From Dehalococcoides mccartyi CG5 (lineage in GTDB: Bacteria > Chloroflexota > Dehalococcoidia > Dehalococcoidales > Dehalococcoidaceae), in the NCBI RefSeq assembly GCF_000830885.1, contig NZ_CP006951.1:682001-746000 (forward strand): DNA of 64,000 bases, given 5' to 3'. The position numbers and the translations under genes were made by a program. This document shows positions 18,772-55,950 of this stretch, piece by piece (position 1 is the stretch's first letter; each line of letters starts with the position of its first letter). The notes beneath the pieces are model-generated. The model was not told the origin of the DNA. It did not search any database and saw only the letters and a program-made list of their open reading frames with translations.

Positions 18772-20718
18772 TTGGCCAGTAGTTTTATTGCTATAGCCGT
18801 TCTCTTCCCCTTTGTAGCCGGCTTGATTTGTCTGTTCCTAAAACACAACCTTCTGAGGTCCGGGCTTGTTGCCCTGTCTGCCGTTGTGCTCATTTCCAGT
18901 TCTATCCTGCTGTTTTCGCAGGGCGGTTTGCCGATAGAGTACAGCCCTGCCCACCAGTGGGATAGCATCATTATGGTGCTTGATTATGCACTGCTGGCTT
19001 TCTTCCTGTTGGTGGGTGTGAAGGATATTATCAAAAACGGCTGGAGTGTCAGAGGTATTCTGACGGCCAGTCTGGTACTGTCACAGATAGTGCTGCTTGG
19101 GTTATTTGAGTTTGTTTGGGCACCCGCCGTACCTCTCCCTTCCGAACCGGCCTTCTTTATTGACCAGCTTTCCATTATCATGTGCCTTATTATTTCAATT
19201 ATCGGTTCACTTATACTTCTTTACGCCATCAAATACATGAAAGACCATGAGCATCACCAGCATCTTAAAATCACCCGCCAGCCTCGTTTCTTTTTCTTTA
19301 TGACCATATTGCTAGGCGCTATGAACGGTATTGTATTTTCTGACAATCTGCTCTGGTTATACTTTTTCTGGGAAATCACTACTTTATGTTGTTTCGCCCT
19401 TATCGGCCACGAGCAAACTAAGGAAGCTGTTAACAATGCCTTCCGTGCCCTCTGGATGAACCTGATAGGCGGTTTGGGATTTGTGCTGGCCATAATTTAT
19501 GTCTTTACAAATTACGGCAGTATTTCCCTGCAAGCACTTATTACCAACCCCATTATAGCCATGGCACCTCTTTTCTTCTTGTTTATGGCGGCTTTCACCA
19601 AAGCTGCGCAGGTGCCTTTTCAGGGTTGGCTTTTAGGTGCTATGGTGGCACCGGTGCCTGTTTCGGCTTTGCTTCACTCTTCTACCATGGTCAAAGCGGG
19701 TATTTACCTTTCCATCCGTTTGGCTCCGGCTATTACTGATACCACTTTAGCCACTTTGATTGCTCTGTTCGGGGCATTTACATTTATGGTAACCGCCCTT
19801 ATGGCTATCAGCCAACGTGAATCCAAGAAAGTTCTGGCCTATTCCACTATTTCAAACCTTGGCCTGATTATAATGTGCGTAGGTATAAATACCCCTCTGG
19901 CAATTACCGCTGCCATTGTCCTTACCATTTTCCATGCCATATCCAAAGCCCTCCTCTTTATGTGTGTGGGCGTCATAGACCACTCTATGGGCAGCCGTGA
20001 TATTGAAGATATGGAGGGGCTGGTACGCCGCTATCCGCTGATAGCCGGTATAACTGTCGCCGGTATCCTTTCCATGATGCTGGTGCCTTTTGGCATGCTG
20101 CTGGGCAAATGGGCTGCCATAGAGGCTACTTCGGCTATGTCAGGGTTTATTTCACCGCTGGTTTTCATACTTTTGGTTATAGGTTCAGCGGCGACCACTG
20201 TTTTCTGGGTAAAATGGCTGGGGCGTTTCTTCAGTGTGACGCCGGGTATTGAGAAAATAAGGTTTGAACGTTTTTCATTTTTGTATCACAGCCCTTTGAT
20301 TGTACTGCTGGCCTTGGCCGGAATATTCAGTTTAGCGGTTATCCCATTTTACGAAAATTTCATCTTGCCGGCTGTAACTGCTTTCTATCCGAATGTTGTA
20401 GATACCTCAACCGGTTTCTTCGGAAGTGCTGTAGGTTTATTTACCGCTTGGCCGTTATTTATCCTGCTGGCAGTCGCCCTCATACTGGTACCTGTTTTAT
20501 TCAAACCCAAAGCCAAAAACCTTAGCACTGCCTATATGTGCGGTGAAAATGTAAGCACCTCGGCTGACAGTTTTTATTCGGTAGCTGATGGTGAGACTAA
20601 AATCAAACTGGGCTCAATGTATCTGGATACCCAGTTTGCTAACCCTAATCTGGATACCGGGCTTAAGATAGTTGGGCTTTTGATACTTGTTAGTATGCTG
20701 GTAGTGGTGCTGATATGA
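18772..20718 (+). CDS. echA: Ech-type hydrogenase, antiporter-like membrane subunit
   Basis: A 648-residue proton-pumping membrane subunit related to NuoL, HyfB and EchA, with about 15 or more hydrophobic helices. The antiporter core shows FFFWEITTLCCFALIGHE, the KAAQVPFQGWLLGAM segment (conserved lysine) and a lysine-bearing KVLAYSTISNLGLI helix. Near the C-terminus YMCGEN is a mark of the hydrogenase-type members. It starts at TTG 18772 with AAGGAAG upstream and is the first of nine tightly packed genes. Together with EchB it would couple electron flow to ion movement. Confidence 0.9.
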   Translation: MASSFIAIAVLFPFVAGLICLFLKHNLLRSGLVALSAVVLISSSILLFSQGGLPIEYSPAHQWDSIIMVLDYALLAFFLLVGVKDIIKNGWSVRGILTASLVLSQIVLLGLFEFVWAPAVPLPSEPAFFIDQLSIIMCLIISIIGSLILLYAIKYMKDHEHHQHLKITRQPRFFFFMTILLGAMNGIVFSDNLLWLYFFWEITTLCCFALIGHEQTKEAVNNAFRALWMNLIGGLGFVLAIIYVFTNYGSISLQALITNPIIAMAPLFFLFMAAFTKAAQVPFQGWLLGAMVAPVPVSALLHSSTMVKAGIYLSIRLAPAITDTTLATLIALFGAFTFMVTALMAISQRESKKVLAYSTISNLGLIIMCVGINTPLAITAAIVLTIFHAISKALLFMCVGVIDHSMGSRDIEDMEGLVRRYPLIAGITVAGILSMMLVPFGMLLGKWAAIEATSAMSGFISPLVFILLVIGSAATTVFWVKWLGRFFSVTPGIEKIRFERFSFLYHSPLIVLLALAGIFSLAVIPFYENFILPAVTAFYPNVVDTSTGFFGSAVGLFTAWPLFILLAVALILVPVLFKPKAKNLSTAYMCGENVSTSADSFYSVADGETKIKLGSMYLDTQFANPNLDTGLKIVGLLILVSMLVVVLI

Positions 20719-21563
20719 ACGAATGGTTGCTGGTTGCTTTAGCTCTGGTTTTGCCGCCTGTACTGGGGAGTTTGCTTCGCGGTTTTGACCGTATACTGAC
20801 TGCCCGAATGCAGGGAAGGTTCGGGCCGCCCCTCCTCCAGCCTGTTTACGATACTATCAAACTTTTGGCCAAACGCCGCATGATTACCGGTCGTATGCAG
20901 GCCGTAAGTTCTATAGGTTACCTGCTTTTTATCATGGCGGCTACAGTTATGTTTTTCCTCGGTCAGGATCTTCTACTTATTGTACTGGTACTGGGCGTGG
21001 CAGATATGTTTCTGGTTGTGGGTGCCTTTGCCACCCGCTCCCCGTATAGCCAGATTGGTGCCAACCGCGAGCTTCTGCAGATACTTTCTTATGAGCCTAT
21101 CCTGATTATAACGGCTATCGGGCTGTATATAGCTAACGGTAGTTTTATGATTTCTGAAATCAGCCAGCCTTTATTGCCTTCTTTATGGCCAATATTTATC
21201 GCCCTTGTTTTGGTGCTGATTATACTTATGCGAAAATCTCCTTTTGATATTTCATCTTCGGAGCATGCTCATCAGGAACTGGTCAGGGGTGTATTCACCG
21301 AATATTCGGGTATTCACTTGGGGCTTATAGAGATTGCCCATATGTACGAACTTATACTGGTACTGGGTGTTATTTCTCTCATGTGGCTTCCGGGTGTTGT
21401 GCCCGGTATTGCACTGGCACTTGCCTGCTGGTTTTTAGTACTGGTGATTGATAATATAACTGCCCGCCTTACCTGGTCTTCCATGCTGAAAATATTATGG
21501 ATGTTCGGGCTGGGTCTGGCACTGGTTAACCTTATCGGACTTTCAGTGCTGGGAGGGGTCTAA
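20715..21563 (+). CDS. echB: Ech-type hydrogenase, NuoH-like membrane subunit
   Basis: A 282-residue NuoH/HyfC/EchB family protein with about eight helices. It links the soluble [NiFe] module to the membrane arm. Family segments are LLRGFDRILTARMQGRFGPP, LLQPVYDTIKLL, NRELLQILSYEP and the loop SPFDISSSEHAHQELVRG, which carries acidic residues important in NuoH. It overlaps the stop of the previous gene by 4 bases (ATGA) and the next gene starts immediately. Confidence 0.92.
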   Translation: MNEWLLVALALVLPPVLGSLLRGFDRILTARMQGRFGPPLLQPVYDTIKLLAKRRMITGRMQAVSSIGYLLFIMAATVMFFLGQDLLLIVLVLGVADMFLVVGAFATRSPYSQIGANRELLQILSYEPILIITAIGLYIANGSFMISEISQPLLPSLWPIFIALVLVLIILMRKSPFDISSSEHAHQELVRGVFTEYSGIHLGLIEIAHMYELILVLGVISLMWLPGVVPGIALALACWFLVLVIDNITARLTWSSMLKILWMFGLGLALVNLIGLSVLGGV

Positions 21564-22031
21564 GTGGATTTTGTTACGAAGTCCCAGATAAAATCACCCT
21601 GGCTGCTCCATTTTGATTGCGGCAGTTGCAACGGGTGTGATATTGAAATACTGGCCTGTCTTACACCTCTTTATGATGTTGAACGTTTCGGCATTGTAAA
21701 CATGGGTAACCCCAAGCATTCGGATGTCCTTCTGGTAACTGGTCCTGCCAATAAACGTAATTACCGGGTTTTACGAAATCTGTACGAACAAATGCCTGAA
21801 CCAAAGGTAGTCATAGTTATAGGTACCTGCGGTTGCAGCGGCGGCGTTTTTCATAACTGCCCCAATATACTGGGCGGAGTGGATAAAGTAATACCGGTGG
21901 ATGTTTATGTTCCCGGCTGTGCCGCCAGACCTGAGGCCATTATAGACGGCGTGGTTATGGGGCTTGGCAAACTGGCTGATAAAAAAGCTAAGGCTAAAGC
22001 TCAAACCAAACGCGAGGAACAGAATGTGTAA
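21564..22031 (+). CDS. echC: [NiFe] hydrogenase small subunit, Ech/NuoB-like
   Basis: A 155-residue small subunit that holds the proximal [4Fe-4S] cluster next to the NiFe site. The ligand cysteines are visible in DCGSCNGCDIE (C19, C22), GTCGCSGG and PGCAARPE. It has the short, single-cluster form typical of group 4 hydrogenases. GTG start directly after echB. The lysine-rich C-terminal tail (KKAKAKAQTKREEQ) extends past the family core and overlaps the next gene by 8 bases. Confidence 0.94.
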   Translation: MDFVTKSQIKSPWLLHFDCGSCNGCDIEILACLTPLYDVERFGIVNMGNPKHSDVLLVTGPANKRNYRVLRNLYEQMPEPKVVIVIGTCGCSGGVFHNCPNILGGVDKVIPVDVYVPGCAARPEAIIDGVVMGLGKLADKKAKAKAQTKREEQNV

Positions 22032-22509
22032 TTGTGAATCCAAATCCCCTGAGGTTATAGACCTGTCAAAACTGGATAATATTCTGGATGGTTACCGTGA
22101 TAAAGCCGATATGCTTATTCAGGTGCTCCTCAAAATTCAAAAAGAGTATAACTGGCTTCCCAAAGAAGCCTTGTATAAAGTAAGCCAAACCCTGAATGTG
22201 CCCGTAAACAGAGTTTACCATGTAGCTACCTTCTATAAACTTTTTAGCGTAATACCCAAAGGCAAACATAACGTAAGTGTTTGCGTGGGTACTGCCTGTC
22301 ACGTGTTTGGTGCGCCCAAGATACTGGATCGTTTGGAGAAATCACTGGGTATAAAAGCCGGTGAAACTACTTCTGACCTGAAATTTTCCCTTGAAACAGT
22401 AAACTGTCTGGGTTGTTGTGCTTTGGGACCGGTGGTGGTGGTTGATGGTCATTACCACGGCAAACTACCTACCGCCGATGCCGAAAAAATACTGGCAGAC
22501 TACGATTAA
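22024..22509 (+). CDS. NuoE/HoxE-like thioredoxin-fold [2Fe-2S] subunit
   Basis: A 161-residue homologue of NuoE (24 kDa complex I subunit). The helical N-terminal half is followed by a thioredoxin-like [2Fe-2S] domain with ligands CVGTAC and CLGCC. In diaphorase modules it works with the NuoF-like FMN subunit encoded next. It is placed inside a hydrogenase operon between EchC and EchD equivalents, which is not the standard Ech layout. The start at ATG 22024 is set by the end of echC. Confidence 0.93.
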   Translation: MCNCESKSPEVIDLSKLDNILDGYRDKADMLIQVLLKIQKEYNWLPKEALYKVSQTLNVPVNRVYHVATFYKLFSVIPKGKHNVSVCVGTACHVFGAPKILDRLEKSLGIKAGETTSDLKFSLETVNCLGCCALGPVVVVDGHYHGKLPTADAEKILADYD

Positions 22510-22522
22510 TTAGGAGCATATA

Positions 22523-24445
22523 ATGCCAAGGCTAAATACTCCGGCTGAGCTGGAAATACTGCGTGAAAAACTGGCAAAAAAACAGTCTGCCAGCCGTCCC
22601 TGCATAACGGTATGTTGCGGTACGGGTTGCCGGGCTTTGGGTTCAGTTAAACTGGTAGATGCCTTCCGAAGTGAACTTGCCAAACAAGGGCTGGAGAATC
22701 AGGTTGATATCAAAGAAACCGGCTGTCACGGTTTTTGCGAAAAAGGTTCGGTAGTCGTTATATATCCCCAAAATATCTGCTATTTCCATGTCAAACCTGA
22801 AGATGCAGCTGACGTTATCGAAAAAACTATTAAAACCGGTGAATTAGTGGAACGCTTACTGTATGCAGATCCTGCCACCGGAGAGAAACTGGTCTACCAC
22901 CATGACATCCCCTTTTATAAATATCAGAAGCGTATTGTACTGGGTGATAACGAACATATAAACCCCCAAAATATAGAGGATTATATCCAGCGTGGTGGTT
23001 ATTCCGCTCTGGTTAAAACCCTTTTCCATATGACTCCTGAATCTGTGCTGGAAGAGGTAGACAAAGCCAATTTGCGGGGACGCGGCGGCGGAGGTTTCCC
23101 GGCCGGTAAAAAATGGCGCACTACCCGTGATGCCGCAGACCCGGTCAAGTATGTACTGGTTAACTGTGACGAAGGTGATCCGGGTGCTTTCATGGACCGT
23201 TCCATAATGGAGGGCAATCCTCATTGTGTACTGGAAGGTCTGGCTATCGGGGCTTTTGCCATTGGTGCTAAAGAAGGTTATATATATGTTAGGGCTGAAT
23301 ACCCTTTGGCGGTAGAAAATCTGTATGCTGCTTTAAGGCAGGCTGAAGAATATGGCTTGCTGGGCAAAAACATACTCGGCTCAGGTTTTGATTTTGTAGT
23401 CAAAGTCCATGAGGGCGCCGGTGCTTTTGTATCCGGTGAATCATCCGCTTTAATGACTGCTATCGAAGGCCGGGTTGGTGAACCTCGCCCCAAATATATC
23501 CGCACCGCTATCAAAGGCCTCTGGGATAAACCTTCAAACCTGAATAACGTGGAAACTTGGGCTAACGTACCCCACATAATAAATAAAGGGGCAGACTGGT
23601 TCAGGTCTATCGGCACAGAGGGCAGCAAAGGCACCAAGATATTCGCACTGGTTGGCAAGGTCAATAATACCGGACTGGTGGAAGTGCCTATGGGGACTAC
23701 TCTTCGGGACATTATATTTAAAATAGGCGGCGGTTTGCGTGACGGTAAAAAAATAAAAGCTGTCCAGACAGGCGGGCCTTCAGGCGGATGTATACCGGAA
23801 AATCTGCTGGATTCGCCTGTTGATTATGATGCACTAAGCAAGCTGGGTTCTATGGTAGGCTCAGGCGGGCTGATAATAATGGACGAAGAAACCTGCATGG
23901 TAGACATCGCCCGTTATTTTATAAACTTTTTATCAGACGAATCTTGCGGCAAGTGCTTACCCTGCCGTGAGGGTCTGCGCCAGCTGGTAGATATACTTAC
24001 CCGTATTACCGAAGGCAAAGGCACTATGGTTGACATGGATACACTGGAAGACCTGAGCGGCGTAATGAGTGAAGCCTGTTTGTGTGCCCTGGGACAACAA
24101 GCCCCCAACCCCTTGCTCACTACTCTTAAATATTTCCGCCACGAATATATTGACCATATTAAAAATAAGCATTGCGAAGCCGGTGTTTGTAAAGCCTTGC
24201 TTACTTTTTATATTGACCCTGACAAATGCAAAGCCTGTATGATTTGTGCCAGAAACTGCCCCACTGACGCCATCAAGGGCGGCAAGGGGCTTATTCATAC
24301 GATTGAGCAGGGAAAATGCATCAAATGCGGTGCTTGTGTAGATACCTGCCCTGCCAAATTTGATGCCGTTATTAAAATATCCGGCAAACCTATTCCAAAA
24401 AATGTACCGGCTGAACCTATTCCTTTAAACCGGAAGGCAGAATAA
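22523..24445 (+). CDS. NuoF/HymB-like NAD(P)-binding flavoprotein
   Basis: A 640-residue flavin subunit with three parts: an N-terminal [2Fe-2S] thioredoxin-like domain (CCGTGC 31-36, GCHGFC 68-73), a NuoF core with the FMN/NADH loop RGRGGGGFPAGKKW (185-198) and the N3 cluster motif ESCGKCLPCREG, and a C-terminal pair of [4Fe-4S] clusters (CKACMICARNCP, CIKCGACVDTCP). This architecture matches HydB/HndC-type subunits of bifurcating hydrogenases more than plain NuoF. It should exchange electrons with NADH or NADPH. The next gene starts on its stop codon (TAATG). Confidence 0.94.
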   Translation: MPRLNTPAELEILREKLAKKQSASRPCITVCCGTGCRALGSVKLVDAFRSELAKQGLENQVDIKETGCHGFCEKGSVVVIYPQNICYFHVKPEDAADVIEKTIKTGELVERLLYADPATGEKLVYHHDIPFYKYQKRIVLGDNEHINPQNIEDYIQRGGYSALVKTLFHMTPESVLEEVDKANLRGRGGGGFPAGKKWRTTRDAADPVKYVLVNCDEGDPGAFMDRSIMEGNPHCVLEGLAIGAFAIGAKEGYIYVRAEYPLAVENLYAALRQAEEYGLLGKNILGSGFDFVVKVHEGAGAFVSGESSALMTAIEGRVGEPRPKYIRTAIKGLWDKPSNLNNVETWANVPHIINKGADWFRSIGTEGSKGTKIFALVGKVNNTGLVEVPMGTTLRDIIFKIGGGLRDGKKIKAVQTGGPSGGCIPENLLDSPVDYDALSKLGSMVGSGGLIIMDEETCMVDIARYFINFLSDESCGKCLPCREGLRQLVDILTRITEGKGTMVDMDTLEDLSGVMSEACLCALGQQAPNPLLTTLKYFRHEYIDHIKNKHCEAGVCKALLTFYIDPDKCKACMICARNCPTDAIKGGKGLIHTIEQGKCIKCGACVDTCPAKFDAVIKISGKPIPKNVPAEPIPLNRKAE

Positions 24446-25038
24446 TGGAAGAAATTAAGCTGACTATAGATGGCAGGGAAGTTATTGCCAAGAGCGGACA
24501 GACTGTTTTTCAGGCGGCCACCGCAGCCGGTATCCATATACCTTCGCTCTGTTTTCATGAGCAACTGGAGCCTTACGGCGGATGCCGTATATGCAGTGTG
24601 GAAGTCGTAGCCGGGTCACGTTCAAAGGTGGTGGCTTCCTGCGTTTATCCGGTGGCAAATGGTTTGGTAGTAAATACTAGTACCGATAAAATCCGCCATA
24701 TCCGCAAGGTGCTTATAGAGCTTTTGCTTACTAAAGCCCCTGCTTCAAAACCCATACGGGACTTGGCTGAAGAATATGGGGCGGATACTGCCCGTTTCAG
24801 CCATGATGCTTCGTTCTGTATACTTTGCGGCTTGTGCGTCCGATACTGTGCCGAGGTTAAAAAAGCCAACGCCCTGTGCTTTATCAGCCGGGGTACTCAA
24901 CGTGAAGTGACCTTTGTACCTGAAACAGCCAACCGGGAATGTGAAAAGTGCCAGCAATGTTTTGATATTTGTCCCACCAACTTTATCAGGGCTAATTTTG
25001 AAATGGCAAAAGCTCTCACTTTCGAAACTAAGGAATAG
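24445..25038 (+). CDS. NuoG N-terminus/HoxU-like iron-sulfur subunit
   Basis: A 197-residue protein equal to the N-terminal part of NuoG or to HoxU. A plant-type [2Fe-2S] site (C at LCFHEQ, CRIC, and ASC) is followed by two [4Fe-4S] sets (CILCGLCVRYC and CEKCQQCFDIC). It lacks the molybdopterin-type C-terminal domain of full NuoG. It would wire the NuoE/NuoF-like flavin unit to the hydrogenase or to the flavoprotein fusion that follows 2 nt later. Confidence 0.92.
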   Translation: MEEIKLTIDGREVIAKSGQTVFQAATAAGIHIPSLCFHEQLEPYGGCRICSVEVVAGSRSKVVASCVYPVANGLVVNTSTDKIRHIRKVLIELLLTKAPASKPIRDLAEEYGADTARFSHDASFCILCGLCVRYCAEVKKANALCFISRGTQREVTFVPETANRECEKCQQCFDICPTNFIRANFEMAKALTFETKE

Positions 25039-25040
25039 TT

Positions 25041-26426
25041 ATGTTAGAAAATGCGGAATATATAAAGGCAGGAGAACTGCTAGACCATACCCAGAAACTC
25101 TATGACGAAGGGGCAATATTTTGCACTGCCTCCTGCGTAGATCTGGGGAATGAATTTGAGGTTATTTACCACTATAATCTGGAAAAGGGTCTGCGGATGA
25201 AACACCTCAGGCTCAAGATAGACAAAAATGAAACTGTTCCCAGTATTTCAAACATCTACTTGTGTGCTTCACTTATTGAAAATGAAATGCAGGAGCTTTA
25301 CCAGCTAAAACTCAGTAAAATTGCCATAGATTTCAGCGGCGGTTTTCTGGTCACCAAAGAAACCCCCACGAGCTATATGATAAAAGCCCCTGATTACAAA
25401 CTGATTCCGGTAGAACGCCTGACTGCCCCCTGCCAGAAAACCTGTCCGGCAGGCATAGATGTATCCCGTTATGTCCGCCTGTGTGGTGAGGGTAACTATG
25501 ACGCGGCTTTGGCTGTTATCAAGCAAGCCATGCCTTTCCCCGGAATACTGGGGCGGGTTTGTCTGGCTCCCTGCGAATCTGCCTGCCGTCAGGGCAAGTG
25601 CGGAGAATCTATAAGTATCAAACAGCTTAAACGCGCCGCCTACGAATACGGCCATTATACGGATAGTATCACCGCCAAACCCACCGGCAAAAAAGTAGCC
25701 ATTGTGGGTTCCGGCCCGTCAGGTCTGGCTACTGCCTATTTTCTGGCTAAAAAAGGGCATAAGGTAACCGTATTTGAAGCTTTGCCGAAGGCTGGCGGAT
25801 ATATGCGGGTAGGCATACCTGAGTATACACTTCCCCGCCAAATACTTGATGCCGAGATTGAAAATGTCTCCAAACTTGGAGTTGAATTCAAGCTGGGTAC
25901 AACTGTAAATTCACTTGGCAGCCTGAAAGAAATGGGATTTGATGCCACACTGTTGGCACTGGGTGCCAATCAGGGCGTACGCCGATCCAATATCATTGCC
26001 GCCTTCAGCGGCGGTACAGACGTATTCAAAAGATTCGGTCTGGCGGTTGAGAACATAAACGGCAATAATGTGCTGAAAATTGATGATGATACTTTGACCA
26101 CTTCTCAGCAGGGTGTCTTTGCCTGCGGAGATGCCGTAAATGGGCCTACATCTGTAATTCACGCCGTAGCTTCAGGCAAAAAAGCGGCTGCAAGCATAGA
26201 CAAGTATCTGGGCAGTGACGGCAAATGGGTGTTTGAAAATATTGTTGCCCACGAACCTGTATCACGTGATACTTTCCTTGAACGTATTTTGCCCAAGAGC
26301 AAACCTTTAAGTGTTAAATACGATATTAAGCAAGCCAAAGAGCGAAACGAAGAAACCGCCGGCTATAACCGTGAAGTTGCCTCCACTGAAGGCAAACGCT
26401 GTTGGCGCTGTGATTTGGAGGAATAA
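25041..26426 (+). CDS. echD: NuoC/EchD-like domain fused to GltD-like FAD protein lacking NAD(P) domain
   Basis: A 461-residue fusion. Residues 1-115 resemble the 30-kDa NuoC/EchD subunit. Residues 125-200 form the GltD-type double [4Fe-4S] domain (CQKTC at 131-135, C148, C174, C178, C182, C187). A Rossmann FAD site follows (GSGPSG 223-228) and closes with FACGDAVNGPTSVI (360-373). In GltD/NfnB relatives about 120 residues with a second GxGxx(G/A) NAD(P) fold lie between the two FAD halves. Here DATLLALGANQG runs into the C-terminal FAD half after only some 30 residues, so the NAD(P) domain appears absent. A C-terminal CWRC is an extra motif. EchE follows without a gap. This fusion may connect FAD chemistry with the hydrogenase. 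Confidence 0.85.
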   Translation: MLENAEYIKAGELLDHTQKLYDEGAIFCTASCVDLGNEFEVIYHYNLEKGLRMKHLRLKIDKNETVPSISNIYLCASLIENEMQELYQLKLSKIAIDFSGGFLVTKETPTSYMIKAPDYKLIPVERLTAPCQKTCPAGIDVSRYVRLCGEGNYDAALAVIKQAMPFPGILGRVCLAPCESACRQGKCGESISIKQLKRAAYEYGHYTDSITAKPTGKKVAIVGSGPSGLATAYFLAKKGHKVTVFEALPKAGGYMRVGIPEYTLPRQILDAEIENVSKLGVEFKLGTTVNSLGSLKEMGFDATLLALGANQGVRRSNIIAAFSGGTDVFKRFGLAVENINGNNVLKIDDDTLTTSQQGVFACGDAVNGPTSVIHAVASGKKAAASIDKYLGSDGKWVFENIVAHEPVSRDTFLERILPKSKPLSVKYDIKQAKERNEETAGYNREVASTEGKRCWRCDLEE

Positions 26427-27506
26427 ATGGCACGAACAGTAATACCCTTCGGGCCACAGCATCCGGTATTTCCTGAACCGGTACAACTTAAACTTGAATG
26501 CGAAGATGAAACCGTAGTCGGGGTCACACCAGTTATTGGTTATGTACACCGCGGGGTAGAAAAAGCCTGTGAGCTAAATACTCTTAGGCAGAATATATTT
26601 CTGGTAGAACGTATTTGCGGTATCTGTTCCATACAGCACGCACTTTGTTACTGTCAGGGTATAGAAGAACTGGCAAATATTGAAATTCCCCAGCGGGCGC
26701 AGTATCTGCGTACTGCCTGGGCAGAGCTTTCCCGCCTGCACAGCCATAGCCTCTGGCTTGGTCTGCTGGCAGATGCACTTGGTTTTGAAAGCCTGTTTAT
26801 GCAAATTTGGCGTGCCCGTGAGATTATTCTGGATATACTGGAAATAACCGCCGGACACCGGGTTATCACCTCTGCCTGTGTGGTTGGCGGGGTACGCCGT
26901 GACATAGATGCCGAAATGCTCAAAAAGACAGAAGCTATGCTGGGTGATTTCAGAAAGATGATGGATAAGACCATTCTGCCCACACTGCTAAATGACCCCA
27001 CCTTGAAGAAAAGAACGGTCGGCAAGGGTATTTTGTCTTATGACCAGGCTGTTACACTGGGAGCTTGCGGTCCTACCATGCGTGGCAGCGGTGTTCCTTC
27101 TGACGTCCGTTCCACCGGTTATGCCGCCTTTAAAGAGCTTGGTTTTGAGCCGGTAGTGGAAACAGCCGGTGACAGTTATGCCCGTACTCTGGTGCGCACC
27201 CGCGAACTATACCAGTCCATAGACCTTACTCTGGCAGCACTCCACCAGATGCCTGCCGGCGAAATAATGGTTAAGGCAGATGCCTATCCCGAGGGAGAAA
27301 TATTTACCCGGGTGGAACAGCCGCGCGGTGAGCTTACTTATTATATCAAGGCCAATGGCACAAACCATCTGGACAGGTGCAAAATACGCACCCCCACTTT
27401 TGCCAATATACCCACCCTGCTGGTTATGCTGCCGGGGTGCGAACTGGCAGACGTGCCTGTTATTACCTTATCTATAGATCCTTGTATATCCTGTACGGAG
27501 CGTTAG
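26427..27506 (+). CDS. echE: [NiFe] hydrogenase large subunit, Ech-type
   Basis: A 359-residue large subunit carrying the NiFe site. Both cysteine pairs are intact: RICGICSIQH (62-71) and DPCISCTER (351-359). This separates it from NuoD, which has lost them, and marks a real hydrogenase. The protein ends directly after the second pair, so there is no C-terminal peptide for a maturation protease to remove. It starts on ATG 26427 immediately after the fusion gene. Confidence 0.95.
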   Translation: MARTVIPFGPQHPVFPEPVQLKLECEDETVVGVTPVIGYVHRGVEKACELNTLRQNIFLVERICGICSIQHALCYCQGIEELANIEIPQRAQYLRTAWAELSRLHSHSLWLGLLADALGFESLFMQIWRAREIILDILEITAGHRVITSACVVGGVRRDIDAEMLKKTEAMLGDFRKMMDKTILPTLLNDPTLKKRTVGKGILSYDQAVTLGACGPTMRGSGVPSDVRSTGYAAFKELGFEPVVETAGDSYARTLVRTRELYQSIDLTLAALHQMPAGEIMVKADAYPEGEIFTRVEQPRGELTYYIKANGTNHLDRCKIRTPTFANIPTLLVMLPGCELADVPVITLSIDPCISCTER

Positions 27507-27515
27507 GAGAAGGCC

Positions 27516-27860
27516 ATGCCTTGGATGATCGGAACAGTATTAAAAAATTTGTTTTCAGCTCCCGCCACCCGCCGTTATCCTTATGAAAAACGGGAGTCTT
27601 TTGAAGGTTCACGCGGAAGTATTGTTTGGGATGCTAAACGCTGTGATATGTGCAGTGATTGTGCCAGAGTTTGCCCTGCCCGTGCCATCACTGTTGATTC
27701 GGAAAAACACCAGATAGAATATGACCCGCTTAAGTGCATCTACTGCGGCACTTGCACCGAAACCTGCCTTCAGCATGCTATTATCCAGCACCCTCTTTAT
27801 GCTGCCCCACAGGGTGCACATGCCAGCCAGATAACCGAAGTACACCACTACCGCTACTAA
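27516..27860 (+). CDS. echF: Ech-type hydrogenase ferredoxin-like subunit
   Basis: A 114-residue NuoI/EchF homologue with two [4Fe-4S] motifs, CDMCSDCARVCPA and CIYCGTCTETCLQ. It passes electrons between the NiFe small subunit and the electron partner. AGGAG is 5-6 nt before ATG 27516. It is the last gene of the operon, and a hairpin terminator follows. Confidence 0.93.
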   Translation: MPWMIGTVLKNLFSAPATRRYPYEKRESFEGSRGSIVWDAKRCDMCSDCARVCPARAITVDSEKHQIEYDPLKCIYCGTCTETCLQHAIIQHPLYAAPQGAHASQITEVHHYRY

Positions 27861-27941: not shown

Positions 27942-28871
27942 TCAGGCAGTATCTGCCGTAAAGGGCATTACGTCCTGTATCTGGTCTGTATTGCAGAAAA
28001 ACATCACCAAACGGTCTATCCCAAGCGCATTTCCAGTGCAAACCGGCAGATATTTCACTGCCTCCAAAAATATTTCAGGCGTAACCACCCGCCTGTTTTG
28101 CTCAGCCTCTATCAGCTTTTTTTCTTCGGCAAAACGGGCTGATTGTTCAAGCGGATTAGTCAGCTCGGAATATGCATTTGCCATTTCCAAACCCGATATG
28201 AAAAACTCTGCCCGTTCAGCAACTTCAGGATTGGTTTTCTTGAGTCTGGCCAAAGACGCCATTTTAGCAGGATAATCCAGTAGCACAGTAGGACGATGGG
28301 ACTGAAAAGATGGTATAACCTTCAGCACCAGATCTTCATCAAAACGCTTCTCATCATCGGTATTCACCGGATCCCAGCCTACTGTATTCAGAAAAGCATC
28401 ACGCACGGTTAGGCGTTCCCAGGGGGGTGTCAGGTCAATATCCTGTCCCAAATAACGGATTTGGATCTTGCCAAACAGCTTCATTGAAATATGGTAGAAC
28501 AGATTTTCGGTATCATTTATCATCTGGAGATAATCTGCCCCGACCCTGTACCACTCCAGCATACTAAATTCAGGATTATGGTGACGGCCTTTTTCGCCAT
28601 CCCGAAAGCAGCGGCTTATCTGGTAGATATTGGTATAGCCGGATGCCAGCATGCGTTTCATATACAGTTCGGGCGAGGTAGACAGATAACCGTTTTGACA
28701 CTCTACCGGTTTTATATAGCGTTCCGGGACAACTGAGGGAACAAAAACAGGGGTCTCCACTTCCAGAAACCCCTGTTCATTAAAAAAACTGCGTATTAAC
28801 CCCAAGATTTGCATACGGCTTTTTAAGTTGTCTTCCAGTCTTCCCAGCCGTTGCCTCTCATCAGAATACAT
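27942..28871 (-). CDS. epmA: EF-P lysine ligase (EpmA/PoxA/GenX)
   Basis: A 309-residue class II lysyl-tRNA-synthetase-like enzyme without the anticodon-binding domain, which attaches (R)-beta-lysine to EF-P. Motifs seen are FLEVETPVFVPSVVPE (motif 1), CFRDGEKGRHHNPEFSMLEWYR (motif 2, positions about 86-107) and a C-terminal GNALGIDRLVMF (motif 3). The efp gene ends 5 nt before its start, on the same strand, which supports the modification role. The EpmB aminomutase that makes beta-lysine is not in the window. Confidence 0.92.
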   Translation of the reverse strand: MYSDERQRLGRLEDNLKSRMQILGLIRSFFNEQGFLEVETPVFVPSVVPERYIKPVECQNGYLSTSPELYMKRMLASGYTNIYQISRCFRDGEKGRHHNPEFSMLEWYRVGADYLQMINDTENLFYHISMKLFGKIQIRYLGQDIDLTPPWERLTVRDAFLNTVGWDPVNTDDEKRFDEDLVLKVIPSFQSHRPTVLLDYPAKMASLARLKKTNPEVAERAEFFISGLEMANAYSELTNPLEQSARFAEEKKLIEAEQNRRVVTPEIFLEAVKYLPVCTGNALGIDRLVMFFCNTDQIQDVMPFTADTA

Positions 28872-28876
28872 TATAG

Positions 28877-29443
28877 TTACTTCTTATTGCCCACTCTTTC
28901 AACGTAGGCACCGGTGCGGGTATCCACCCTTATTACGTCCCCTGCTTTCATAAAGGTGGGCACACCTATTTCCATACCATTTGAAAGTTTAGCAGGTTTA
29001 TTCTGGGCGGTTACGGTTTCTTTGCCGGTACTCATAGAGGTTTCCATTACTTCCAGCTCAATAAAATTGGGCAAAGTAATTTCAATGGGATTATCCCCCA
29101 GAAGTTGCACCGGGACAACCATGCCGTCTTTTAGAAAAACGCCTCTTGAACCCATACGGTCTTCGGCCATAAAGTGCTGTTCAAAAGTATCGGTATTCAT
29201 AAATATATAATTGCCATTTTCATGGTAAAGATACTGCATATCATAGGTAGATACATCAGCTTCTTTCAGTTTGTCACCGGAATGAAAAGTGCGCTCCAGA
29301 ATGCCGCCATCCATCAGGTTGCGGAATTTTATCCGGTATACGGCACTTCCCTTGCCCGGTTTCATAAAATCCACATCATCCACGTTGTATGGTATATCAT
29401 CCAACATGATTTTTTTATTCTTGCTGATTTCCTCTATATTCAT
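28877..29443 (-). CDS. efp: Elongation factor P
   Basis: A 188-residue translation factor that relieves ribosome stalling at proline runs. The loop KPGKGSA (28-34) carries K31 at the position modified in EpmA-type EF-P. Three beta-barrel domains of normal length follow, ending in a typical IRVDTRTGAYVERV segment. It is co-directional with epmA, 5 nt apart, so the factor and its modifying enzyme are made together. Confidence 0.96.
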   Translation of the reverse strand: MNIEEISKNKKIMLDDIPYNVDDVDFMKPGKGSAVYRIKFRNLMDGGILERTFHSGDKLKEADVSTYDMQYLYHENGNYIFMNTDTFEQHFMAEDRMGSRGVFLKDGMVVPVQLLGDNPIEITLPNFIELEVMETSMSTGKETVTAQNKPAKLSNGMEIGVPTFMKAGDVIRVDTRTGAYVERVGNKK

Positions 29444-47556: not shown

Positions 47557-47928
47557 ATGCTGGTAGATTATAGCTATATTGCACTATTCCTTGTAGCTGC
47601 GATACTTTTTACGGCAGTAGTACTAGGACTGCCTGTCCTCCTCAAAAAACTGGGCATTGTACCCAGTAAACCTAATCCGGTTAAAAACTCCGCCTACGAA
47701 TGTGGCGTAGAAACTCATGGACGCACTTGGGTTCAGTTCAATTTCCGCTACTATTACTACGCACTTCTGCTTATTGCTTTTGATGTGTTGCTGGTTTTCC
47801 TCTTTCCTTGGGCAACACAAATCGGTTCGCTCGGGTTTTATGCCTTCGGGATAGTATTTGCCTTTCTGTTAATAGTTTTGGCGGGCTATCTGTATGCGTG
47901 GAAGAAGGGAGCTTTGGAATGGAACTAA
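47557..47928 (+). CDS. nuoA: Complex I subunit NuoA
   Basis: A 123-residue membrane protein with three helices and the NuoA signature [28 protein letters not shown] (positions 45-72; the CGxE loop is conserved). It is part of the junction between peripheral and membrane arms. AGGGGGG is 5 nt before the ATG. It is the first gene of the eleven-gene operon and overlaps nuoB by 10 bases. Confidence 0.95.
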
Positions 47929-48521
47929 ACTTCGAAAAACCGCTAAGCCTGCTTACTCTGGACGAGATTGACCAGCAGGAAGGCGGGGTAATTCAAAGCT
48001 TTCGTACCGGACATACATCCCCCTATCCTGACCCTGCAGACTGGCTAAATGGCGAAGAGCCGCCTCCGGGTGTATTTATCACCAGTGTGGAAAAGGTACT
48101 TAACTGGTCACGCCATTATTCCCTTTGGCCGGTGATGTTCGGTTTAGCTTGTTGTGCTATTGAGATGATGTGCATGGCAGCCTCCCGCTGGGATTTAGCC
48201 CGTTTTGGCATGGATATATTCCGTGCTTCTCCCCGTCAGGCAGACCTGATGATAGTTGCGGGCACTCTTACATGGAAAATGGCTCCCTGGCTGAAAAGGA
48301 TTTATGATCAGATGCCTGAACCAAAATGGGTATTGGCCATGGGGGCTTGCGGAACCAGCGGCGGTTTATTTAGGGATTCATATTCGGTAGTACCCGGTTT
48401 TAATCTGGTAGTCCCGGTTGATGTATATGTGCCCGGTTGCCCTCCCCGCCCGGAAGCACTTATGAGGGCTATTATGGATATACACGAAAAAATAGATAAA
48501 ACCCGTATCCTAAAGAGATAA
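47919..48521 (+). CDS. nuoB: Complex I subunit NuoB
   Basis: A 200-residue subunit that holds the N2 [4Fe-4S] cluster. The ligands are the tandem cysteines of [19 protein letters not shown] and PGCPPRPE. The N-terminal ~65 residues extend beyond the core. ATG 47919 lies in the end of nuoA, with GGGAG upstream. Confidence 0.96.
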
Positions 48522-48525
48522 CTTT

Positions 48526-48975
48526 ATGACCGCTGTACTTGATTACCCACAACTTAAGGCTGCCTTATCCAAAGAACTGCCCGGAATTAAAATTCAGGCA
48601 GATGGCAGCTTCCTGCTGGTTTCACCCGAAGATATGCACAAGGTATGTGAACGCCTAACTTCCTTACCGTCTATTCAAATGGATTATCTGACAAACCTGA
48701 CTGCTGCAGATTATCCTGAATATATAGAAATTATTTTTCATTTGAACTCAATTACGCATAATACCTCTGCTACTGTAAAAACCCGCCTGACTGACAAGAA
48801 AAACCCCAAAATAGCTTCGGTAGTAGATATCTGGCGCGGAGCAGAGCTGCAGGAACGTGAAATATATGACCTTTTTGGGGTGTTTTTTGAAAACCATATA
48901 GGCCTGAAACGCATTTTCCTGTGGGAAGGTTTTGAAGGTTATCCTCTGCGCAAGGATTTTGTAAATGGCCATTAA
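48526..48975 (+). CDS. nuoC: Complex I subunit NuoC
   Basis: A 149-residue 30-kDa-subunit homologue with the signature [22 protein letters not shown] (positions 102-123) and LRKDF at the end. It is shorter than the fused or long NuoC proteins, as in several anaerobes. It overlaps nuoD by 11 bases, so translation is coupled. Confidence 0.95.
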
Positions 48976-50068
48976 AACTGAAAACTTTATTCTGAATATA
49001 GGCCCCCAGCATCCAAGCACCCACGGTGTGTTCCGCCTGCGTATTGTTCTGGATGGTGAGGTTATTACTGACCTTGAGCCGGTTTTCGGTTATCTGCATC
49101 GGGGTATTGAAAAGCTGGCAGAGGGGCGCACCTATCTGCAGGATATACCTTTTACAGACCGTCTGGATTATCTGGGCTCCATGACCAATAACCATGCTTA
49201 TGTTATGGCAGTGGAAAAACTAGCCGGCATAACAGTGCCTGAACGGGCTGAATATATAAGGGTGATACTGGACGAACTCCAGCGGATAGCCAGCCATCTG
49301 GCCGGTTTGGGTTTTTTCTTAAATGACTTGGGCGCCCTTCAAACCCCTTTGCTGTATATGTTCCGCGAACGTGAAAAGATTGTGGAACTGTTTGATATGT
49401 GCAGCGGTCAGCGTTTAAATTACAACTACTACCGCTTTGGCGGATTTGTTCAGGATTTGCCGGAAGAATTTCTGCCCGCCCTAAAAATACTACTGGATAC
49501 TTTGCCCGGTTTTATTGACGAATACGAACAGCTTATTTCCACCAATGAAATTGTGCTTATCCGCACCAAAGGCGTTGGCGTACTTAAGCGTGATTTGGCT
49601 ATAAATTCCAGTGCGGCCGGCCCGGTACTTCGGGCAAGCGGCATAAACTGGGATATCCGCCGGAATGACCCTTATTCCATTTATAACCGTTTTGAGTTTG
49701 ATATACCCATCGCCAAAAACGGTGATACCTATGACCGTTACATGATACGTATTTTAGAAATGCGCCAGAGTGTGCGGATACTTCGTCAGGCAGTAAAAGA
49801 CCTGCCCGAAGGTGAAATAATGGGTAAAGCCCCCAAACTTCTTAAACCACCGGCGGGTGAGGTGTACAGCCGTATAGAAGGCCCTAAAGGTGAACTGGGC
49901 TTCTACCTGGTATCAGACGGCACAGACAAACCCTACCGCTGGCGGGTACGCCCACCCTGTCTTTTAAATTTGTCGGCTTTAAAAGATATGGTAGTAGGCT
50001 GGAAAGTGGCTGACCTTATGGCTATTTTCGGCAGTATAGATATAGTGATGGGTGAGGTGGACAGATAA
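48965..50068 (+). CDS. nuoD: Complex I subunit NuoD
   Basis: A 367-residue 49-kDa-subunit homologue, the quinone-site subunit. [13 protein letters not shown] begins near residue 12, and the His-rich [11 protein letters not shown] segment follows. It ends [11 protein letters not shown], where hydrogenase large subunits would have a cysteine pair; the nickel ligands are absent, which separates it from EchE in the same window. Confidence 0.96.
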
Positions 50069-51129
50069 TGTCTGACTTCTGGATCCATCTTTTGGTTTAC
50101 TTGGTCATACTCTTTGGTTTTGTAATTGTGAGTGTGCTTATATTTATCTGGCTGGAACGCCGCCTTATCGGCCGTTTTCAGCTTCGCCCCGGCCCGAACA
50201 GAGCCGGCCCTTTCGGTCTGCTACAGCCTATAGCTGATGCGATCAAGGTGCTTATCAAAGAAGACATTATCCCCTCAGAGGCAGATAAAGGGGTCTTCTG
50301 GTTAGCCCCTTTAGTGGCTTTCGTACCGGTAATGCTAATGTTTGCTGCCATACCCTTTGCTGATGGAGTTATGCTGGTTGACCTGAATATAGGCATACTT
50401 TATATACTGGCAGTAAGTTCGGTAACCGTGATAGGTATATTTATGGCCGGTTGGAGCAGCAACAACAAGTATTCCCTGCTGGGTGCCATGCGTACCATAG
50501 CTCAGGAAGTCAGCTATGAAATACCGCTGGTGCTTTCCATACTCGGTGTTGTTATGTTAACCGGCTCGCTCTCTATGAATGAGATAGTAAAAGCTCAGGA
50601 TGTTCCCTTTATACTGCTGCAGCCGCTGGGCTTTTTTGTTTACCTGTCTGCCGCCATGGCAGAAGTAAACCGCACTCCTTTTGATTTACTCGAAGCCGAG
50701 TCTGAAATCATTGCCGGTTTTCACACCGAATATTCCGGCATGAAATTCGGGCTTTTTTACCTTATGGAATACGCCGAGGTTCTGGCAGTTTCCGCCATCG
50801 CCACCACCCTTTTTCTGGGAGGCTGGCAGGGGCCGCTGCTGCACCCGGTTTTCTGGTTTATCGCCAAAGTTCTTCTGGTTTTCATGTTTATAATCTGGGT
50901 GCGTGCCACCCTACCTCGTCTGCGTATAGACCAGGTAATGGCTTTCGGCTGGAAATTCCTGTTGCCTTTGTCCCTTGCCAATCTGGTTATTACTGCATTT
51001 GAAATACTGATTGCGCCGGATATAAACACGGCTGTGCTTATAGGCATAAATATAGCTGTAATGTTCGGGCTTATCCTCCTGTTCAGTAGATTTTACAAGC
51101 TGGGAGGCGGACGTGTCAGTATTAAGTAA
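50068..51129 (+). CDS. nuoH: Complex I subunit NuoH
   Basis: A 353-residue membrane subunit with about eight helices that forms part of the quinone chamber. RRLIGRFQLRPGPNRAGPFGLLQPIADAIKVL lies at about 31-62, and FDLLEAESEIIAGFHTEYSGM carries the acidic loop. ATG 50068 overlaps the nuoD stop by one base. Confidence 0.96.
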   Translation: MSDFWIHLLVYLVILFGFVIVSVLIFIWLERRLIGRFQLRPGPNRAGPFGLLQPIADAIKVLIKEDIIPSEADKGVFWLAPLVAFVPVMLMFAAIPFADGVMLVDLNIGILYILAVSSVTVIGIFMAGWSSNNKYSLLGAMRTIAQEVSYEIPLVLSILGVVMLTGSLSMNEIVKAQDVPFILLQPLGFFVYLSAAMAEVNRTPFDLLEAESEIIAGFHTEYSGMKFGLFYLMEYAEVLAVSAIATTLFLGGWQGPLLHPVFWFIAKVLLVFMFIIWVRATLPRLRIDQVMAFGWKFLLPLSLANLVITAFEILIAPDINTAVLIGINIAVMFGLILLFSRFYKLGGGRVSIK

Positions 51130-51664
51130 TACCGGCGGCGGTATTCTGAAAGGAATGCGCCTGACCTTTAAGCACCTGTTCCGCCCATGGATAACTGTCC
51201 AGTATCCGGAAGAAAAACTGGCCATGTCAAAAAGGATACGCGGCAATCAAGTTATCTGGGTGAAAGAGACCTGTATTGCCTGCCTGGCCTGTGCCCGTGC
51301 CTGCCCGGTAAAGGCTATCAATATGGAGGTTTCCAGAGGCGAGGACCGCAAGCTTAAGGTTGACCATATGTCTATAGACTTTGGGTTATGCATCTTTTGC
51401 GGGCTGTGTGTTGAATCATGCCCCACTAAAAACGCTATTTACATGGGCTGCGGCTACGAAACCACAACCTACCGCTGTACAAATGTTGAAAAGGCGGAAG
51501 GTCAAAGTTTCTCAGAATGCCGTTGCCGTGAGCTGATACTGACAGGTGATGAACTTGGCCCTTCGGAAACACGGGTACTTAGCGGATACGACCGCCCTGA
51601 TGCCGCCGAGAAACTGCCTCTGCAAACCCTGCTTATAAACAAGAAAGGCTACTTTGAAAGGTAA
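51113..51664 (+). CDS. nuoI: Complex I subunit NuoI
   Basis: A 183-residue ferredoxin-like subunit with two [4Fe-4S] clusters (CIACLACARACPV and CIFCGLCVESCPT). In the absence of NuoEFG, this subunit is the likely entry point for electrons. The C-terminal half (about 115-183) is longer than in EchF and includes further cysteines (RCTNVEKAEGQSFSECRCRE by position). GTG 51113 overlaps the nuoH end, with GGGAGG upstream. Confidence 0.95.
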   Translation: MSVLSNTGGGILKGMRLTFKHLFRPWITVQYPEEKLAMSKRIRGNQVIWVKETCIACLACARACPVKAINMEVSRGEDRKLKVDHMSIDFGLCIFCGLCVESCPTKNAIYMGCGYETTTYRCTNVEKAEGQSFSECRCRELILTGDELGPSETRVLSGYDRPDAAEKLPLQTLLINKKGYFER

Positions 51665-51670
51665 ACCTGG

Positions 51671-52153
51671 GTGGAAATAGCGTTCTGGATTATAGCCATA
51701 ACCTGTATAGTCTCCGCCTTGCTGGTGGTGGGAGTGAAAAATATTTTCCACTCATCCCTCTGGCTGATACTCTGTTTCCTTTCGGTGGCAGGTGTGTTCC
51801 TGCTTCTTTCAGCTGACTTTCTGGCGGCAGTGCAGATACTTATCTATATCGGCGCTATATCAGTGCTTATTATACTGGCCATCATGCTTACCCGTGAGGT
51901 TCAGCGCGGCAATCTTACCAATAAACTCAAGATACCGGCTCTATTTGTTGTTACCGCTCTAGGCGGGATAATGACCTATATGCTTATCAGTTCAAACTGG
52001 ACTTCAAGCGACGCCCCTCCCCCATCTACCACCACTGCCGGGCTTGCGGATATGCTTTTCGGGGCAGACGGGTTTGGGCTGGGAGTACTGCTGACGGGCG
52101 TAATATTACTAGTCGCCATTATCGGGGCTATAGTGCTGGTGAGGGATAAATAA
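51671..52153 (+). CDS. nuoJ: Complex I subunit NuoJ
   Basis: A 160-residue membrane protein with five helices; AVQILIYIGAISVLIILAIMLTRE (positions 54-77) is the typical third helix region. It starts at GTG 51671. A Pro/Thr-rich loop (DAPPPSTTTAG) lies between helices 4 and 5. Confidence 0.93.
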   Translation: MEIAFWIIAITCIVSALLVVGVKNIFHSSLWLILCFLSVAGVFLLLSADFLAAVQILIYIGAISVLIILAIMLTREVQRGNLTNKLKIPALFVVTALGGIMTYMLISSNWTSSDAPPPSTTTAGLADMLFGADGFGLGVLLTGVILLVAIIGAIVLVRDK

Positions 52154-52154
52154 T

Positions 52155-52460
52155 ATGGGACTGACTCACTTTTTGGTACTGGCGGTAATATTGTTCTGCA
52201 TCGGGCTTTACGGGGCACTGGTTAAGAAGAGTGCTGTAGTAATACTGATGTGCATAGAAATAATGCTGAATGCGGTTACCATAGCGGCAGTTGCCTTTAA
52301 CCGTTTCGCTTCACCCGAATTATTTACCGGGCAAATATTCACCCTGTTTATTATTGCGGTGGCCGCAGCCGAGGCAACTATAGGTCTGGCCATAATAATA
52401 TCCATCTACAAAAACCGGGATACTATTGACGCAACTAAGATAGATTTGATGAAGTGGTAA
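52155..52460 (+). CDS. nuoK: Complex I subunit NuoK
   Basis: A 101-residue membrane subunit with three helices. The key glutamates lie in IEIMLNAVTIAAV (about 34-46) and VAAAEATIGLAIIISIYKN (about 70-88), as in proton-pumping NuoK. It begins 1 nt after the nuoJ stop. Confidence 0.95.
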   Translation: MGLTHFLVLAVILFCIGLYGALVKKSAVVILMCIEIMLNAVTIAAVAFNRFASPELFTGQIFTLFIIAVAAAEATIGLAIIISIYKNRDTIDATKIDLMKW

Positions 52461-52476
52461 AGAGGAAGAATAAGCC

Positions 52477-54441: not shown

Positions 54442-54450
54442 GGGGGGAGT

Positions 54451-55944: not shown

Positions 55945-55950
55945 AGACAA

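Follow-up and report, generated by a model that had tools for sequence, protein, structure and literature searches.

The window analysed is a 64,000-nucleotide stretch of Dehalococcoides mccartyi CG5 (contig NZ_CP006951.1). On its plus strand lies a tight operon of nine genes in the order NuoL-H-B, BfuC-B-A, a NuoC-GltD fusion, [NiFe]-NuoD and NuoI, whose neighbouring members abut or overlap (Table 1). The fusion is the seventh gene; its ORF has no internal stops and its limits are exact by the ORF list and translation. The BfuC start was called mechanically at TTG 21964, with a 68-base overlap of NuoB; ATG 22024, with an 8-base overlap, is likelier and is the one tabulated.

Table 1. Genes of the predicted Mbh-Bfu operon and features of the fusion protein (window coordinates)
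Feature	Coordinates	Strand	Evidence
NuoL/MbhH-like antiporter-type membrane subunit	18772..20718	+	Pfam PF00361
NuoH-like membrane subunit	20715..21563	+	Pfam PF00146
NuoB-like hydrogenase small subunit	21564..22031	+	Pfam
BfuC (NuoE-like, one [2Fe-2S])	22024..22509	+	Pfam PF01257, E 1e-50
BfuB (2Fe-2S + NuoF/FMN + 2x[4Fe-4S])	22523..24445	+	Pfam, alignment to 7t2r_B
BfuA (NuoG-like), 197 aa, one [2Fe-2S] + two [4Fe-4S], Type 2	24445..25038	+	sequence, Pfam
NuoC-GltD fusion protein, 461 aa, NAD(P) domain absent	25041..26426	+	ORF, Pfam, phmmer, alignment
NuoC/EchD (Complex1_30kDa), residues 1-100	25041..25340	+	Pfam PF00329 at 8-90
Double [4Fe-4S] domain (Fer4_20), residues 129-203	25425..25649	+	Pfam, alignment
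FAD-binding half 1, residues 216-309 (GSGPSG, E246, GG252-253)	25686..25967	+	Pfam, alignment
Codon 263, Thr in place of Arg beside FAD N5 (NfnL R201 / StnC R239)	25827..25829	+	alignment
Junction R315/S316, site of absent 132-residue NAD(P)-binding Rossmann insert	25985..25986	+	alignment
FAD-binding half 2, residues 343-391 (GD363-364, GPTSV)	26067..26213	+	Pfam, alignment
C-terminal CxxC (454-457)	26400..26411	+	alignment, 25/25 GltD-containing sequences
NuoD-like group 4 [NiFe]-hydrogenase large subunit	26427..27506	+	L1 CGICSIQH, L2 DPCISCTER in sequence
NuoI-like 2x[4Fe-4S] subunit	27516..27860	+	Pfam

Since both the L1 and the L2 nickel motif are present, the large subunit belongs to a real group 4 [NiFe] hydrogenase and is not a quinone-type NuoD; NuoL- and NuoH-like membrane subunits are encoded with it, and the NuoL-H-B-C-D-I core is that of Ech and Mbh enzymes. 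A standard Ech takes electrons directly from ferredoxin, whereas in this operon a flavoprotein is attached to NuoC and BfuABC is present in addition. BfuB has the domains of its family (N-terminal 2Fe-2S, NuoF core, C-terminal 2x[4Fe-4S]) and lies beside BfuC, as is typical of Bfu enzymes. Alignment to 7t2r_B finds equivalents of the family-diagnostic B2-cluster His (H525) and of C531, C536 and C438; the residue matching C476 is Thr, which about two-thirds of BfuB proteins also have there. BfuA has [2Fe-2S] cysteines followed by eight Cys for two [4Fe-4S], and its positions 97-118 hold no Cys; it thus has clusters A1, A2 and A4 without A3 or A5, and is of Type 2.

Schut et al. 2022 (PMC9304861) predicted an 'Mbh-Bfu' complex (BfuB clade 45) in Dehalococcoides, and by its sequence the operon is this system: nine genes, six of them Mbh/Ech-type around BfuABC, a Type 2 BfuA and one subunit with an extra flavin. 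From the gene count and flavin site, the fusion is probably their 'Mbh-BfuG'. The text of their paper calls the flavin site 'of unknown function' and mentions neither NuoC, GltD nor NfnB; the absent NAD(P) domain, the relatives with the insert and the loss of the N5 Arg are likewise not described there. A literature search found no further account of a NuoC-GltD fusion, of Mbh-Bfu, or of an Ech with NADPH and GltD in Dehalococcoidia, and no biochemistry for any member of the complex. As far as we found, this is a predicted, uncharacterised enzyme; what is new here is its ancestry, a strict trade of two electron sockets, and a change at the flavin site.

The original prediction, of a NuoC/EchD domain fused to a GltD-like flavoprotein with a double cluster domain and a GSGPSG FAD site, agrees with Pfam, phmmer and the alignments. 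The NuoC part is homologous to stand-alone NuoC proteins of three other operons described below. In the GltD part, Pfam detects the FAD Rossmann motif at 218-256 and the C-terminal part of Pyr_redox_2, ending at 379; FAD binding is predicted from such motifs. The top phmmer matches among solved structures are the GltD-bearing A/C subunits of Bfu-type transhydrogenases (9bov, 8oh5 = StnC, 9n5u), with NfnL next. Each of the three matches is split in two, about 129-310 and the C-terminal half, which is what an absent middle would lead one to expect. The best fold matches (Z 34-36) are likewise to the StnABC or Nfn-Bfu transhydrogenases of Sporomusa (8oh5), Caldicellulosiruptor (9bov) and Thermococcus (9n5u).

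Cluster ligands in the double [4Fe-4S] domain are Cys 131, 135, 174, 178 and 182 and Lys 197 (codon 25629-25631, equivalent to StnC K170). The N-terminal half has five of the usual Cys, and the absent CxxC sits at the C-terminus; StnC-type proteins have the same arrangement. The N-terminal RCLQC segment of NfnB aligns weakly (5.8 bits) to the position of the C-terminal CxxC in 9bov_A, a position that the VIA alignment of the fusion model also reaches. We infer from DPD/GltD chemistry that the CxxC is a relocated ligand pair completing the first cluster. This was preferred over a truncated extra ferredoxin, which was rejected, because all Stn-type GltDs aligned carry CxxC at the C-terminus.

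Loss of the NAD(P) Rossmann domain, also predicted, is confirmed by alignment and modelling. The insert had been put at about 120 residues, with about 30 left between the FAD halves; both figures are close, and alignment with relatives gives 132 residues absent between R315 and S316. The fusion therefore has the double [4Fe-4S] domain and two-part FAD site of GltD/NfnB proteins but lacks their NAD(P)-binding insert. Its AlphaFold model, of moderate confidence (pLDDT 78.7, pTM 0.65) and with NuoC and the cluster domain joined by a disordered linker, contains no second Rossmann fold; residues 310-325 are disordered, then followed by a short helix and small strands. As a control, identical modelling of an insert-bearing relative (P0002, from L030) built the Rossmann domain at pLDDT 86-97. 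Over one and the same stretch of 9bov_A, VIA alignment covered 305 residues of the fusion model (Z 35.6, rmsd 2.9) and 446 of the relative (Z 44.4, rmsd 2.3). The FAD, as predicted, lacks a nucleotide site of its own and is encoded beside a NuoF-like NADH site, that of BfuB in the operon.

A phylum search found insert-less fusions in three Dehalococcoides-type genomes (G000-G002), in a genome of the same family (G009, 51% identity) and in a more distant Chloroflexota MAG (G282, 53%), that is, in three lineages diverged to 51-53% identity. Insert-bearing fusions were found by contig scan (L030, L031) and by class- and family-level searches (G688, G785, G787). BfuC-BfuB-BfuA immediately precedes each of the five insert-less fusions, in the same nine-gene order, and all five insert-bearing ones, which keep a 132-residue insert with a GGGN motif, lie in L-H-B-fusion-D-I operons without Bfu genes. 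In three further operons (L032, G664/L051 and the Thermoplasmatota MAG L034) NuoC is plain, about 117-126 aa long, and both GltD and Bfu are absent. Genes in common keep the same order across all compared operons, and viral contigs gave no relative. Bfu presence and NAD(P)-domain loss coincide in 10 of 10 fusion operons, a count that represents few evolutionary events (three Bfu lineages and one insert-fusion clade), and insert loss tracks the gain of Bfu and of no other gene in the ten. Genes for hypA and hypB lie downstream of the operon in G282 and L031.

Relatives with the insert had been expected to imply a local sequence error. They exist, but in operons without BfuABC, and are informative rather than a sign of error. 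Apart from their existence, which such an error or a decaying pseudogene would be in keeping with, the evidence runs the other way: the junction is identical and in frame in five genomes of three lineages, as the proposed check on conservation had asked; the five proteins have the derived residues S323, G324 and F234 in common, plus an extra residue at 341; and between Dehalococcoides genomes dN/dS is about 0.04 for the whole gene, for both FAD halves and for the junction. Error or decay is so improbable as to be negligible and is ruled out by junction conservation; the feature is real, conserved and not an artefact.

Changes at the flavin site accompany the deletion. In NfnB, R201 keeps N5 of the bifurcating FAD from being protonated; its counterpart in StnC, R239, is about 6 A away, and the R239A variant has almost no activity (PMC10482914). 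The proximal-cluster ligand is Glu in NfnB and Lys (K170) in StnC, a close relative with a solved structure, whose GltD FAD does not bifurcate but transfers electrons to a BfuBC-type core (PMC10482914). Position 263 of the fusion corresponds to R201/R239 (numbering verified on the 5jca_L and 8oh5_C alignments); it is Arg in 20 of 20 insert-bearing homologues and T, A, A, E and E in the five insert-less fusions. K197 is invariant in all 25 GltD-containing sequences. Further consistent changes in the insert-less fusions cluster near the vacated interface, at 234, 322-324 and 329, and include Y234F and, beside the junction, AIG(Q/E) to A-x-SG at 321-324. The Gly-rich loop, E246, GD363-364, GP368-369 and the cluster Cys, C-terminal CxxC included, are unchanged. 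The fusion resembles NfnB/NfnL and GltD in its double-cluster and two-part FAD domains, and differs from them in lacking the NAD(P) domain and R201 (T263, or A/E in its relatives), in having Lys (K197) for Glu at the proximal cluster, and in being joined to NuoC. With StnABC it has in common the proximal-cluster Lys, the C-terminal CxxC and a FAD associated with a BfuBC-type core; StnC, however, keeps the NADPH domain and the N5-region Arg, includes the NuoG part in its own chain, and lacks any hydrogenase or membrane component.

The history of the operon is not one of simple descent. A tree of the hydrogenase core groups G282 with the insert-bearing L030, L031, G688, G785 and G787 and the plain-NuoC G664 (100/99), apart from Dehalococcoides and G009, and an AU test on the core rejects a single clade of the five Bfu operons (p 1.15e-5), so that the coincidence of Bfu with insert loss spans two hydrogenase lineages. 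Vertical descent of Bfu with the hydrogenase core is thereby rejected; exchange of the module or of the fusion tail, or parallel loss, must have occurred. The tree of the GltD part, on the other hand, splits the five insert-less from the five insert-bearing fusions at 99/99. On the two trees together, the deletion probably arose once and then travelled, or was exchanged, between hydrogenase lineages with BfuCBA. Independent deletion in each lineage is disfavoured by the GltD split and by the common junction, S323, G324, F234 and extra residue at 341. All other aligned GltDs of the class have the insert, which makes the insert-bearing form the ancestral one.

As the explanation that we tentatively favour, a proton-translocating hydrogenase once plugged into NADP(H) would have been re-plugged with an NAD/ferredoxin bifurcating module, its leftover FAD serving, most likely, as a relay with BfuA docked in line. 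In this membrane-bound [NiFe] enzyme the fusion would be the hydrogenase-anchoring linker, and evolution would have swapped the enzyme's electron input/output. Relatives show the starting state, NuoC fused to a Stn-type GltD, in which the NADP(H) domain and FAD could link the hydrogenase to NADP(H). BfuC-BfuB-BfuA, with NAD, ferredoxin and FMN-based bifurcation, would then have been inserted upstream of the fusion, giving the pattern observed, and the NAD(P) domain would have been lost together with the hydride-chemistry Arg at FAD N5. The kept FAD and two [4Fe-4S] clusters would now form a one-electron relay. BfuA would, somewhat probably, dock at the face where the NAD(P) domain used to be, on a path from BfuA through FAD, the proximal and distal clusters, NuoI and NuoB to [NiFe]. 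NAD and ferredoxin would exchange electrons at BfuBC, and BfuA would pass electrons to the fusion. Overall, as Schut et al. propose in their account of the complex, H2 oxidation would give NADH and reduced ferredoxin with the proton gradient helping, or the reverse. H2 would set the direction: at nanomolar H2 (about -0.28 V by estimate), forming reduced ferredoxin (about -0.5 V) and NADH (about -0.28 V) would be uphill, and the proton gradient could pay for it.

A relay or a bifurcating flavin had both been suggested originally, and the relay is the better supported, through the StnC precedent, the BfuBC residues present, the invariant FAD and cluster residues, and the changed N5 Arg and interface. 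Its chief competitor, possible but a good deal less probable, is that the FAD is a structural or dead-end relic, bound off the main path or acting as a small electron store, with the GltD remnant as scaffold or docking surface and BfuA delivering to the distal cluster or NuoI directly. The NuoG-like part of StnC meets the distal cluster, not the FAD (PMC10482914); BfuA could do likewise, and the FAD would then be out of line. The StnC path is FAD-C7-C6-C5, with the BfuA-like part next to the clusters and the FAD as the far terminus. Two clusters retained in StnC have been described as an evolutionary remnant without function, and loss of the N5 Arg fits a relic as well. A redox-tuned proximal cluster would nevertheless be superfluous for a pure scaffold, and the FAD motifs, the Lys-liganded cluster and all cluster Cys are invariant over the three lineages at the low dN/dS given above.

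The other suggestion, that the FAD also bifurcates, in the manner of NfnB or HdrA, and stands in series with the FMN of BfuB, is very unlikely. The fusion does share its fold with NfnL (Z 27.8-28.4) and HdrA (Z 19.4 to 5odh_A), and HdrA gives a precedent for a bifurcating FAD fed by an Fe-S partner; the likeness to HdrA is one of fold only, and HdrBC is absent from the genes of the window operon. The Arg that stops N5 protonation in NfnB is replaced in five of five insert-less fusions, the proximal ligand is of the Stn type, no third partner for the FAD is evident, and bifurcation in the complex is already accounted for by the predicted BfuBC core; the Arg loss, Lys ligand and existing core together make an NfnB-like role unlikely. 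Should both flavins nonetheless tune energy in series, for which we see little chance, the BfuB FMN would bifurcate between NAD and ferredoxin and the pyridine-nucleotide-free FAD, with its new N5 surroundings, would split or gate electrons to the proton-pumping [NiFe] site; nanomolar H2 could then reduce ferredoxin, with bifurcation and proton gradient joined in one enzyme. Also improbable is that the exposed FAD face docks a soluble one-electron carrier (ferredoxin or flavodoxin) or a small substrate, as an input independent of BfuBC. Without the NAD(P) domain, the isoalloxazine side should lie open, and the fusion matches the related FprA/adrenodoxin-reductase fold, which exchanges electrons with ferredoxins; a ferredoxin site is, however, already present on BfuB, and among the genes of the ten operons the loss tracks only the gain of Bfu.

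If the exchange of sockets is as proposed, it bears on the source of NADH and reduced ferredoxin in dehalorespirers that are obligate consumers of H2 and live where H2 is low. The relatives with the insert supply a concrete ancestry for the Mbh-Bfu flavin published, in the account cited above, without a function, and the intact relative, the deletion and the matching active-site change together make an unusually clear case, within the complex I superfamily, of one electron-entry module being exchanged for another. The prediction is that Dehalococcoidia MAGs encode NADP(H)-linked proton-translocating hydrogenases, and Dehalococcoides the re-plugged version. NADP(H) linkage of the insert-bearing operons is proposed because their GGGN and YRR motifs resemble those of NADP-binding NfnL.

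Six-gene Ech operons with NuoC fused to a complete GltD, its NAD(P) domain intact, are present on five contigs of Dehalococcoidia MAGs (L030 3018-4847; L031 2074-3849; L049 5742-7517; L072 2107-3882; L073 8730-10505), and apparently represent an undescribed NADP(H)-linked energy-converting hydrogenase. The plain-NuoC Ech operon of G664 (L051 7521-18001) adjoins a formate dehydrogenase alpha/beta/gamma set and an FdhE-like gene, which suggests a formate-linked arrangement. In the window, about 20 kb downstream of the Mbh-Bfu operon, a NuoB/D/H/I/L/M/N cluster (47808-57408) apparently encodes the complex I of 11 subunits, lacking NuoEFG, that has been described for Dehalococcoides. The minus-strand stretch 27942-29443, which converges on the hydrogenase operon, has a gene for an EpmA/GenX-like lysyl ligase (309 aa) next to that of elongation factor P.
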